Origin: a virus
DNA: 30,353 nt
Virus record (IMG/VR): IMGVR_UViG_3300047550_006323
Span: 1-30,353 of that record
Direction: 5' to 3' (one strand)
A program made the position numbers and the translations under genes. Shown one piece after another: positions 24,282-30,320 of the stretch. The stretch's first letter is position 1. Every line of letters begins with the position of its first letter. Under the pieces are notes generated by a model. That model made no database searches and had not been told where the DNA came from. It was given only the letters and a program-made list of their open reading frames with translations.

Positions 24282-24855
24282 GGAACACCTGTGTTGTAAT
24301 CATTGAAAATTTTTCCTTCTCCACTTTGATGAAAGGTGAATACTTGTGAATTGTTCGAGAGACGGAGTTCCAAACTGGATCCAACACAAGCTGTTCATCC
24401 ATCTCTACAGTAAATTTATATAATTTATTTAGAATAACAAGTGTTTCTAACCGACATTTTTTACCACAATATGCCTTCAATATCACCGGGTGTCCTTGTG
24501 AAGAATTGAACAACTCCTGGGGTGTAGAAACCAAATAGGATAAATTGGTGATGTCCTGTTTGTAGTTATAGGTCAAGCTTTCTTGGATTCGCTTCCATTC
24601 CATGAAGATTTCATGGCCCATGGGTTCGAAAATACCCCATTCATTACCATTTAAAAAGTTTGCCACCAGATATCCAATCAATTCTTCTTCTTGATAATTG
24701 TATTGTTTCATCAAGGTTTGAAGTTTCTTTTTGAAACTGGTTTTCACACCTGCTTTCGGTTTCTTTGGTATGATACCACTTCGGATATCATAATTGTCTG
24801 TTGTGAAATGCAACCGAAGAGCTGTGTAAATTCGGTATGCGTCATCAATGGTCAT
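24274..24855 (-). CDS. 59: Helicase loader gp59
   Basis: gp59 binds fork DNA and gp32 and loads the replicative helicase gp41. The product is 193 residues (T4 217). Features seen: AYRIYTALRLHFTTDNYDIRSG at about 6-27, a basic KKPKAGVKTSFKKKLQTL stretch at about 31-48, LIGYLVANFLNGNEWGIF at about 59-76, IFMEWKRIQESLTYNYKQDI at about 83-102, and LDPVWNSVSRTIHKYSPFI near 157. These follow the T4 protein's order of motifs. Placement between gp33 and gp32 is the T4 arrangement. Its start overlaps the gp33 stop (ATGA). Confidence 0.85.
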   Translation of the reverse strand: MTIDDAYRIYTALRLHFTTDNYDIRSGIIPKKPKAGVKTSFKKKLQTLMKQYNYQEEELIGYLVANFLNGNEWGIFEPMGHEIFMEWKRIQESLTYNYKQDITNLSYLVSTPQELFNSSQGHPVILKAYCGKKCRLETLVILNKLYKFTVEMDEQLVLDPVWNSVSRTIHKYSPFIKVEKEKFSMITTQVFHE

Positions 24856-25124
24856 ACAGGAAGTTTTGGAGATTTCTTCAAGAGATTCATTTCTTCGGCT
24901 TCAGCTTGTATCTTTGCCTTTAATGAGCTGGTAATCATACTGGCAACAGCCACAGTATCAATGTTCTTTTCTTCACAATACTCCATGAGAGTTTCCAGAT
25001 AACCAATTTTTCTACGAATGGCTTCCCGTTCTATGTGCATGGAAAATTCTGAAGCAGATGTGAATTCTCGGGTGATGAGATATTCAACTGTAAGAATTTT
25101 TGGGTCAAGTTTTTCTTCGGTCAT
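24852..25124 (-). CDS. 33: Late promoter co-activator gp33
   Basis: gp33 bridges host RNA polymerase to the sliding clamp and, with the sigma-like gp55, activates late promoters. The product is 90 residues (T4 112). The C-terminal half follows T4 gp33: LETLMEYCEEKNIDTVAVAS, then SLKAKIQAEAEEMNLL, matching the T4 pattern of LEATTAFLEENSI...KIQSEAIDENLL. The N-terminus is shorter. Synteny with gp59 supports the call, and TATAAATA boxes elsewhere in the window are its expected targets. gp55 itself is outside the window. Confidence 0.82.
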   Translation of the reverse strand: MTEEKLDPKILTVEYLITREFTSASEFSMHIEREAIRRKIGYLETLMEYCEEKNIDTVAVASMITSSLKAKIQAEAEEMNLLKKSPKLPV

Positions 25125-25609
25125 GATATCTTGGGTTCATAGAAAATATGATTTCCTATTTGTGTGATGGGTCTGGCAAAAGTCCAATTTGGTGATACCT
25201 TCGTGTTATGAAAGTATAACGCATTCTTTAATTTATTCACTTGTAAGTTATTTGTCAAGACCTGGACGGCAATATCATAGGATATCTTATATGTGGCACT
25301 ATCAAAGGGGGTTCTGGGTCCACACGTCCAGGAAAATTGACACCCACGTGAATTTCTTTGAAACACAACACCACAAATGGATTTTGGAAATTCACGGTGG
25401 CGAACACGATTCATGGTAACTGTGGCAACAGCAACTTTTCCAAGATATTGTTCCTGAGGAGCTTCATAGAAAATGTTTTTTGCCAAACACACAACTTCTT
25501 TTTCATCTAACCGCTTTTTTATAGGAACCCGCTCAATGATGGGTTTCGGTGTATGGGCTGTTGTTGACAATATAGCCAACATCACAATCAAAAGTACATT
25601 CCTAAACAT
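25121..25609 (-). CDS. Signal-peptide SleB-type cell-wall hydrolase
   Basis: A 162-residue exported murein hydrolase of the Hydrolase_2/SleB family. The ATG at 25609 is fixed by AGGAGG 4 nt upstream; an in-frame extension to 25675 would run through the tmRNA 3' region. A signal peptide is visible: MFRNVLLIVMLAILSTTAHT. The catalytic domain has VVCLAKNIFYEAPQEQYLGK with the expected catalytic Glu49, VAVATVTMNRV at 59-69, CQFSW at 90-94, ALYFHN at 130-135 and IGNHIFY at 151-157. It is a candidate endolysin or lysis helper acting in the periplasm. It overlaps gp33 by ATGA, coupling a lysis-type enzyme to the late regulator. No holin is visible nearby. Confidence 0.85.
   Translation of the reverse strand: MFRNVLLIVMLAILSTTAHTPKPIIERVPIKKRLDEKEVVCLAKNIFYEAPQEQYLGKVAVATVTMNRVRHREFPKSICGVVFQRNSRGCQFSWTCGPRTPFDSATYKISYDIAVQVLTNNLQVNKLKNALYFHNTKVSPNWTFARPITQIGNHIFYEPKIS
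25230..25258 (-). promoter_or_regulatory. Sigma70-like promoter inside the hydrolase gene, ahead of gp33
   Basis: TTGACA (25253-25258), a 17-bp spacer and TAAATT (25230-25235) on the minus strand. It shares the CTTGACAAA context with the ligase and nuclease promoters. Transcription would start about 100 nt upstream of gp33. The -10 is only four of six, and the site lies in coding sequence. Confidence 0.4.
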
Positions 25610-25647
25610 AGGACCTCCTGTTTGAAAGTTCATAGCAAAAGGGAAGG

Positions 25648-25903
25648 GGGTTTTCTGTTCCCAGGGAACCCCCAAAACCCGGCATGCTACCTAATTAGGC
25701 AGCTAATGCAAGAGGTGCGTTATATGCGCCTGTTAAATTTTTTGCTCTGCTTACGGCAGTCGCCTTTCGGGTAGCTCTCGCATCTAATCCTTAACCTGTC
25801 GAAACCAGTCATCCCCGAAATGTTGTGGTATTGAATGGAGATGGAGGGAATCGAACCCTCGTCCAAGCTATGTTTCAAGTTGAGCTGTTCTACTACCATC
25901 CTA
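25648..25903 (-). ncRNA. ssrA: Circularly permuted two-piece tmRNA (ssrA)
   Basis: Read on the minus strand. The acceptor piece comes first: T arm GAGGG-TTCGATT-CCCTC (25844-25860), then acceptor strand CATCTCC (25837-25843) and discriminator A (25836). CCA is not encoded. A 19-nt intervening segment (25817-25835) follows. The coding piece starts with GGGGATGACTGGTTTCGAC at 25816, the universal tmRNA 5' signature. GGGGATG and CATCTCC form a full 7-bp stem with a G3-U70 pair, the alanine identity element. CAGGTT of the coding piece can pair with AACTTG of the acceptor piece (helix 2). After an A-rich stretch, the tag frame GCA...TAA (25695-25727) encodes AYNAPLALAA. Its stop lies in a hairpin loop (GCTGCC/GGTAGC). 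A second strong hairpin lies at 25648-25680. The outer ends are approximate. Confidence 0.92.
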
Positions 25904-25909
25904 CACTAC

Positions 25910-25917
25910 TATTTATC
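25910..25917 (-). promoter_or_regulatory. Possible late-type promoter for the tmRNA
   Basis: GATAAATA on the minus strand, one mismatch from TATAAATA, placed about 7-10 nt before the estimated start of the acceptor piece. It is the only promoter-like match between the nuclease stop and the tmRNA. Read-through from the nuclease gene is the alternative. Confidence 0.35.
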
Positions 25918-25936
25918 ATCATCCTACGATACTATT

Positions 25937-26599
25937 TCACTTGTTGAACGCCTCGTATAAGTCACGATAATACAACAAACTATTTACATGCTTGTCTCTA
26001 CGACTTTCAAACACTTGCATGAATCCATCTTCCACCACAATGGCAATCACAAGACGATTGATGGGAATTTTTGTTCGTTCTTCAAACATGATAGCATACG
26101 CAGCCGCTTGCATGTAATAGTGTTGAATATGCTCTTCATCCTTTTCTCGCCGTGCCGTTTTAAAGTCAATGACACTTAACTTGCCATCAAACTCAGCAAT
26201 GCAATCCACTCGTCCCGCCAAACGAAGGTGATGTGACCATAACGTGGATTCTTGCGCACGAATGTTATCAATTCTATCCAACACAGGTTGTGCCACTTTG
26301 AACATCTCGTAATCCATCAACGAGAAATCACCACCAAATAATTCATTCTGAAGATATTTTTCCGCTAGAGTATGAAATCTGGTGCCACGAAATGCCGCTT
26401 TTCTGGACACACGATTGGCTTCTTCTTCACCCACCCGCTCACGCCACTCCAAGATGCCTTTCTTGGTGTGTGCAGAAAGCACTGTGGTCACGGAGGGATA
26501 GAGTTTACCATCTGGTGTATGATATACTCTATTCCCATCCGTGCCTGTTGTGGCTTTCAATTCTTCTATTTGTATTGGATTTCTGAGAAATGTTTTCAT
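25937..26599 (-). CDS. PD-(D/E)XK nuclease, RecB/MGME1-like
   Basis: A 220-residue exonuclease-type protein. Motifs in order: YPSVTTVLSA at 34-43, GTRFHTLAE at 72-80 with the family His76, GRVDCIAEFDGKLSVIDFKTAR at about 129-150 supplying catalytic Asp132, Asp145 and Lys147, and QAAAYA at 164-169. This arrangement is that of small RecB-like nucleases common in T4-like aquatic phages. Likely roles are DNA end processing in replication or recombination, or host DNA degradation. A TTGACA promoter lies so close that the transcript would start at or next to the ATG, and no Shine-Dalgarno is seen. The -35 overlaps the phoH stop. Confidence 0.88.
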   Translation of the reverse strand: MKTFLRNPIQIEELKATTGTDGNRVYHTPDGKLYPSVTTVLSAHTKKGILEWRERVGEEEANRVSRKAAFRGTRFHTLAEKYLQNELFGGDFSLMDYEMFKVAQPVLDRIDNIRAQESTLWSHHLRLAGRVDCIAEFDGKLSVIDFKTARREKDEEHIQHYYMQAAAYAIMFEERTKIPINRLVIAIVVEDGFMQVFESRRDKHVNSLLYYRDLYEAFNK

Positions 26600-29300: not shown

Positions 29301-30320
29301 TTAACGAATGGTGTAAGTTTCCAAACTGGTGTTCAATTGTCGGTTCACCTGAATGAATTGTGCCTTGTCCTTCATTTCTGAAACATTTTTTGCATCAATG
29401 TAGGCACACGTTGAACGAATTCCACCTAAAATGTCAGCAATGGTGTGTTCCACCAAGCCTTTGTAAGGGATTTGCACCACTCGTCCCTCGGAAGCTCGAT
29501 AATTTTTCACCTGGTTGTGTTTTTTCTGAGCTGCATGACTACTCATCCCGTAAAAAGTGACTTTTCCATCGTGAATTTCTTGTTCCGACTCATCATGACC
29601 AGCAAAAATACTGCCTGCCATCACCATTTCTGCACCTGCAGCCAAGGCCTTTGAGAAATCTCCGGGAAAAACACATCCTCCATCACTTTGCACACCACCT
29701 CCAACCGCTTTTGCGGCTGGAACGCACTCTTGCAAGGCGGAAAATTGAGGATATCCCACACCTGCCACACGCCGAGTGGTACATACCGCGCCGGTTCCAA
29801 TGCCAACCCGTGCCATATCGGCACCTCGAAGTAAAATATTTTCAACTGCTTCGGGTGTTACCACGGTTCCTGCCATGATGAAGGCGTCAGGAATGGCATC
29901 TCGCACTTCAGCAATGAAGGAATAGAAGGGATTCATGTACCCATTTGCCACATCAATGACAATTTTAGGTGTAAAATTATCTACTCTATCCTTCCAAACA
30001 CGAACAATGTCTTGAGCTTTGATGAGCTCTTCACGATTCATGCCTATTGTGATGAAAGCATGACTTACATCCTTCTGTTCCACCCATTCAGCCAGGGTGT
30101 GATGCTTTGTGATGGCTGTGAAGGCGCCGAATTTCTTCAAGGCATGATGCATACTGAAGGTTCCAACACCATCCATGTTGGCAGCAATGATGGGTGCTCC
30201 ATGAATTTTTGCACCCCACTTGCCTTGTATTGTTGTTTCCACTTCCACTTGACTACGGGAAGTGATTTGAGAAAATCTTGGAACAATCAATACATCATTG
30301 AAATCCAGCTTTATCATCAT
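29301..30320 (-). CDS. guaC: GMP reductase (GuaC-like)
   Basis: An IMPDH/GMPR-family TIM barrel of 339 residues without CBS domains, matching the length of GMP reductases. It would convert GMP to IMP with NADPH. Evidence: LDFNDVLIVPRFSQITSRSQVE at about 5-26, ANMDGVGTF near 48, the catalytic loop GIGTGAVCTTRRVAGVGYPQ with the nucleophilic Cys, and the GMPR-type active-site flap and C-terminus (FYGMSSHAAQKKH, YRASEGRVVQIPYKG, HTIADILGGIRSTCAYIDA). GMPR rather than IMPDH is favoured by the MSS...YRA(S/A)EG segment and by length. AAGGT lies about 9 nt before the ATG. Its own promoter is outside the window. A terminator closes it. Confidence 0.88.
   Translation of the reverse strand: MMIKLDFNDVLIVPRFSQITSRSQVEVETTIQGKWGAKIHGAPIIAANMDGVGTFSMHHALKKFGAFTAITKHHTLAEWVEQKDVSHAFITIGMNREELIKAQDIVRVWKDRVDNFTPKIVIDVANGYMNPFYSFIAEVRDAIPDAFIMAGTVVTPEAVENILLRGADMARVGIGTGAVCTTRRVAGVGYPQFSALQECVPAAKAVGGGVQSDGGCVFPGDFSKALAAGAEMVMAGSIFAGHDESEQEIHDGKVTFYGMSSHAAQKKHNQVKNYRASEGRVVQIPYKGLVEHTIADILGGIRSTCAYIDAKNVSEMKDKAQFIQVNRQLNTSLETYTIR

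Follow-up and report, generated by a model that had tools for sequence, protein, structure and literature searches.

Phages that encode their own tmRNA are already known (PMC4131195, PMC7162821, PMC11915505). Mycobacteriophages such as Bxz1, Bacillus phage G and huge phages supply such an RNA, as does the virus considered here, but in the portions of those reports available to us it is not described as permuted (PMC4131195, PMC7162821). Some huge phages also carry SmpB, whereas the relatives of our virus are without it. Two-piece versions were reported in 2022, both for the Methylophilales phage Melnitz and as 53 of 133 unique phage tmRNAs (PMC9004378). The SsrA RNA of Melnitz (gene 86, MZ577097) resembles the one described below in being a permuted two-piece tmRNA of a T4-like phage, encoded between the genes for the Cas4-like exonuclease and gp33, and in matching the Rfam model RF04321 (113.4 bits); in neither case is a host-derived neighbor gene needed. 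It differs in its match to the alpha model (106.7 bits) rather than the beta model, in the glutamine riboswitch that follows it, in its tag (ANDNYVPVDYALAA) and in its promoter, TTGACA-17-TATAAATA, which its authors read as early (PMC9004378). Our gene, in contrast, has no -35 box, encodes no CCA and belongs to a different clade. The betaproteobacterial permuted tmRNA (RF01850) shares with it the gene order, the acceptor and T-arm anatomy, the P2 pairing and the 3' hairpin, but has an encoded CCA and the tag ANDERFALAA (in the representative L164), as against GAYNAPLALAA, resume codon GGC and no CCA in the phage gene, whose coding-piece core is moreover absent from prokaryotic genomes (see below).

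A permuted tmRNA with covarying helices

The window, that is, the whole stretch of DNA analyzed, is a partial, 30,353-base sequence of an uncultured virus. Its minus strand encodes, from 25904 to 25646, a circularly permuted two-piece tmRNA. RF04321 matches the minus strand at 25897-25695 over the full model length with 108.2 bits (E 1.8e-20; gathering score 47), the beta_tmRNA model RF01850 scores 89.8 bits (gathering score 84), and ARAGORN independently calls a permuted tmRNA at c[25604,25925] with the tag GAYNAPLALAA. A search for the T arm, acceptor 3' strand, gap and GGTTTCGAC in this permuted succession gave a single match in the window and no match in any of 100 shuffles. Most of the clear permuted tmRNAs in a 299-genome sample of one bacterial phylum score about 113-162 bits, as against the 108 of the window. 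The first-pass annotation had recognized a phage-encoded permuted tmRNA at 25648-25903 and had suggested the Infernal run with the permuted Rfam models; its span agrees with the refined coordinates to within 1-2 nt, and its identification is borne out by the RF04321 score, ARAGORN, 37 other viral contigs and the covarying stems. It nonetheless overstated the novelty of the finding, a phage permuted tmRNA having already been published for Melnitz (PMC9004378).

The acceptor 3' half is encoded ahead of the 5' half, with an intervening segment between them. The acceptor piece (25836-25904, 69 nt) holds one strand of each P2 helix, the T arm GAGGG-TTCGATT-CCCTC (25844-25860) and the acceptor 3' strand CATCTCC (25837-25843), which is followed by the discriminator A25836 and then by TTC, so that no CCA is encoded. 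A 19-nt intervening segment (25835-25817; 18-37 nt among relatives) separates it from the coding piece (25646-25816, 171 nt up to the end of the 3' hairpin). The coding piece opens with the acceptor 5' strand GGGGATG (25810-25816), which carries G3 and forms with 25843-25837 a stem of seven pairs including G3-U70; the GGTTTCGAC signature follows at 25798-25806. Both pieces contribute to the outer P2 helix (GGTAGT, 25892-25897, with GCTACC, 25775-25770) and to the inner one (TAGCTTG, 25864-25870, with CAGGTTA, 25798-25792). The tag frame, GAYNAPLALAA-stop, lies at 25695-25730, its resume codon GGC being given by ARAGORN and by spacing, and its UAA stop lies within the hairpin GCTGCCT-AATT-AGGTAGC (25686-25703); a further hairpin (25646-25673) ends the piece. 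Every structural detail checked in the earlier description holds, from the permuted order, the intervening segment and the acceptor stem with its G3-U70 pair to the TTCGATT T loop, the signature and the placement of the stop in a hairpin loop.

Folding energy favors the precursor only modestly over shuffles (z -1.9 for the minimum-energy fold), and covariation was therefore used as evidence instead. Across 24 distinct family sequences, which are related sequences rather than independent events, all cells of the acceptor stem, the T stem and the invariant outer P2 helix are paired, as are 98% of those of the inner P2 helix. Changes on both sides are seen in six pairs of the acceptor, T-stem and P2 helices, among them two in the T stem and three in inner P2. 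When the partner strand is slid by 1-3 columns, pairing falls to 44-57% for the acceptor, 60-80% for the T stem, 16-67% for outer P2 and 33-68% for inner P2. Compensatory changes preserve the acceptor and T stems as well as the helix that connects the two pieces, and the alanine identity pair G3-U70 is invariant (24/24 distinct relatives). The tag likewise ends in (L/Y)ALAA in all 35 intact copies, using differing synonymous codons; its start is variable (GAYNAP, GTYNTP, GTFNSP, GTNNMP, DNNYMS and others).

The block comprising T stem, acceptor strands and spacer (25816-25860) in the window differs as a unit from that of the close relatives L003 and L004 and is common to L102 and L141, with pairing preserved on both sides; we read these two swapped forms as probable products of recombination between phages. 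In two further relatives, L070 and L145, the tmRNA is truncated right after the GAYNAP codons, which removes the degron together with the stop and 3' hairpins. These might represent decay or a tag-less form, and the truncation suggests that the gene may be dispensable.

A phage lineage at a recurrent genomic position

The 23-base sequence GAGCTACCSGANAGGCGACTGCC, a core of the coding piece, is present in 37 viral contigs and in 0 of 84,980 prokaryote species genomes. A looser version of this pattern returned three bacterial records, in none of which does ARAGORN call a tmRNA, and these were set aside as a bacterial source. When permuted tmRNAs of phages and bacteria are placed in one tree, ten representatives of the family form one clade with support of 1.0 on a long branch. 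Its neighbors are beta-like tmRNAs and those of other T4-like phages, and Melnitz and the alphaproteobacterial ones stand apart; as the alignment is short and holds a single bacterial beta-type sequence (L164), its deeper position is weakly supported. In sister phages whose tags read DN..ALAA, the tmRNA passes the alpha model rather than the beta model, and relatives match the cyano_tmRNA model below its cut-off. At the DNA level, no isolate matched the window at default limits, and a permissive limit gave only short matches of T-arm type; by protein, the nearest isolates are cyanophages, HTVC008M and Melnitz (about 45-58% identity). The photosystem gene psbA was absent from 19 relatives.

Several other viral contigs (L012, L027, L037, L054, L058, L061 and L119) encode cyanobacteria-like permuted tmRNAs whose tags are without the usual -AA degron, ending instead in ...AELATV, ANKIVAFSRSKVATLV, ...TSELATA or ...TEMVPA. 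Such RNAs could possibly free ribosomes with the chain not being marked for degradation.

The genes around the tmRNA run on the same strand in the order ligase, phoH, Cas4-like exonuclease, tmRNA, endolysin, gp33, gp59 and gp32, with baseplate and tail genes beyond, in keeping with the T4-type replication and late region that had been proposed as its setting. The exonuclease gene (phrog_298; 25937-26599, minus strand) is directly upstream, the endolysin or cell wall hydrolase gene (25121-25612, minus) is directly downstream, and the gene for the gp33-like late transcription coactivator (phrog_254; 24852-25124, minus) comes next. In the cyanophage S-CREM1, the exonuclease and gp33 genes adjoin. 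Where the window has the endolysin gene, L003, L077 and L102 show an ORF, right after the tmRNA, that opens with a PP-loop-like SGG(A/V)DST motif. Elsewhere in the window (29301-30320, minus strand) lies a dehydrogenase gene (phrog_9582, E 7.9e-99), IMP dehydrogenase/GMP reductase-like by appearance, of which L055 carries a relative with 84% identity.

Anchoring a survey on the exonuclease protein rather than on the tmRNA, we found that 44 of the nearest 80 loci hold an ARAGORN tmRNA, all of them permuted, encoded on the strand of the exonuclease gene and located downstream of that gene, a proportion that is an estimate depending on the redundancy of IMG/VR and on loci cut short. The interval is thus a habitual tmRNA site in these phages. 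The first-pass annotation had envisaged acquisition from a host with the permuted form. These comparisons do not support a recent acquisition from the present host: the absence of the core from prokaryotes, the phage-only clade and the common occupancy of the slot together point to an old phage possession.

A predicted late promoter at a fixed distance

A T4-type late promoter element, GATAAATA, predicted from motif conservation at a fixed distance, lies at 25910-25917 on the minus strand. In 18 of 18 distinct upstream sequences of the family, ATAAATA (CTAAATA in one) is followed, after exactly five bases, by the start of the conserved RNA; none of the 27 bases upstream of the motif carries more than 0.9 bit, and there is no -35 element. 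The arrangement is thus that of a TATAAATA-like -10 element at a fixed distance without a -35 box, TATAAATA being the T4 late consensus (quoted in PMC5587285). The predicted transcription start, G25904, would also be the 5' end of the acceptor piece, as the invariant GTAGGATGGTAGTAG begins with this base. The tmRNA strand of the window shows no sigma70-like site near the gene, and the late coactivator gp33 is encoded in the window (phrog_254, E 5.9e-18). TATAAATA also precedes structural genes in the window, and in a relative of 177,878 bases (the record of L141, with loci L150-L158) there are 30 copies of it where 2.8 are expected, most of them lying 17-90 bases ahead of an ORF.

Outside the family, ATAAATA is found in 9 of 36 exonuclease-anchored tmRNAs, several of which also have TTGAC upstream of it at sigma70 spacing; others in this set show a TTGAC/TATAAT pair. 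A shift to exclusively late control therefore seems to have occurred in the family. We would give even odds to the fuller version of this proposal, namely that a phage-dedicated tmRNA lineage shifted from sigma70-type to phage late promoters, with the start site itself forming the acceptor 5' end, yielding a rescue RNA for the phase of virion production that is independent of the host tmRNA gene. One permuted tmRNA from outside the family (L046, tag AKTSTFKFMQVNVDVASNDSAFALAA) likewise has GATAAATA 60 nt ahead of its T arm, as in the family, and may have come under late control independently. Because the upstream exonuclease gene is separated from the promoter element by only 20 bases, transcription from an earlier promoter may read through.

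In the open-access papers searched, we found no report of a phage-only permuted lineage, of its late promoter or of a general occupancy of the exonuclease-gp33 interval. What is new here is the phage-only clade, the predicted late promoter at a fixed distance and the frequent use of this interval.

Probable ribosome rescue during virion production

We favor, with a probability of about 0.72, the interpretation that this is a working, late-transcribed permuted ssrA of a T4-like phage, belonging to a phage-only lineage, which rescues ribosomes with host SmpB, AlaRS and CCA-adding enzyme while virions are being produced. The phage-modified RNA polymerase, with gp33 from the window and presumably gp55 and gp45, would begin late transcription at or near G25904, and the start site would set, or nearly set, the 5' end of the acceptor piece. 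Judging from the anatomy and from what is established for tmRNAs, the 19-nt segment would then be excised by RNase P and tRNA 3'-processing enzymes of the host, the host CCA-adding enzyme would supply the CCA and host AlaRS would charge the RNA via G3-U70, with the acceptor and P2 helices, whose pairing is evident from covariation, likely holding both pieces together. Assisted by host SmpB, the tmRNA would enter ribosomes stalled on broken mRNAs late in infection and add GAYNAPLALAA, and the ribosome would terminate at UAA; the tagged chain would probably pass to ClpXP-type proteolysis via its LAA end. The benefit would be ribosomes kept free for the synthesis of virion proteins, although the host's own tmRNA could suffice.

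Such a scheme leans on host partners. As the first-pass annotation had noted, no smpB is seen in the gene list of the window, and none was found in 10 relatives of up to 177,878 bases, in which the positive controls were recovered; SspB is likewise absent from relatives. With neither protein nor an encoded CCA, the host CCA-adding enzyme, AlaRS, SmpB and proteases are needed. In the 178-kb relative, 29 tRNA genes are clustered at about 107-112 kb, nearly all of them without an encoded CCA, as in the tmRNA; by a rough pattern test, CCA is apparently encoded in 33 of the 36 same-slot tmRNAs outside the family.

The timing of expression is where a different account would enter, in which the tmRNA is early or constitutive, co-transcribed with phoH and the exonuclease gene, and serves, for instance, in the tagging and recycling of host proteins, a role suggested for the Melnitz RNA. 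The tmRNA does share its strand with replication genes of early or middle type, the authors of the Melnitz study infer an early promoter (PMC9004378), and in Melnitz as well as in several relatives a TTGACA precedes the TATA element at sigma70 spacing. However, the invariant late element at exact spacing, the lack of -35 conservation in the family and the lack of a nearby sigma70-like site on this strand of the window make early expression unlikely for the present gene.

Two further explanations dispense with trans-translation by the phage RNA altogether. It might act as a decoy that binds SmpB or enters ribosomes and so blocks host trans-translation, after the manner of the tRNA-domain-only RNA of mycobacteriophage DS6A, which is reported to inhibit tmRNA (PMC4131195, PMC11915505), and the truncated copies in L070 and L145 would suit such a role; yet the intact copies keep the tag frame, the stop hairpin and, through synonymous changes, the (L/Y)ALAA end, none of which a decoy would need, and we deem this improbable. 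That the gene is a non-functional passenger, either a host ssrA fragment carried by the phage or a misassembly, could be entertained for a 30-kb record from an uncultured virus, the more so as prophages are known to carry captured fragments of ssrA (see the discussion in PMC9004378). This is already contradicted by the conservation data, since the same gene recurs at the same place in dozens of contigs, with compensatory substitutions and a core found in no prokaryote genome searched, and we give it scarcely any credence.

Returning to a functional, late-expressed tmRNA, these observations suggest that a broad group of T4-like phages maintains ribosome rescue at a fixed genome position, rather than having captured host DNA by accident, and that in at least one lineage this function has come under late control. 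When a phage needs trans-translation was left to speculation in the Melnitz study (PMC9004378); the alternatives, early recycling of host proteins and late rescue of ribosomes, are now open to test.
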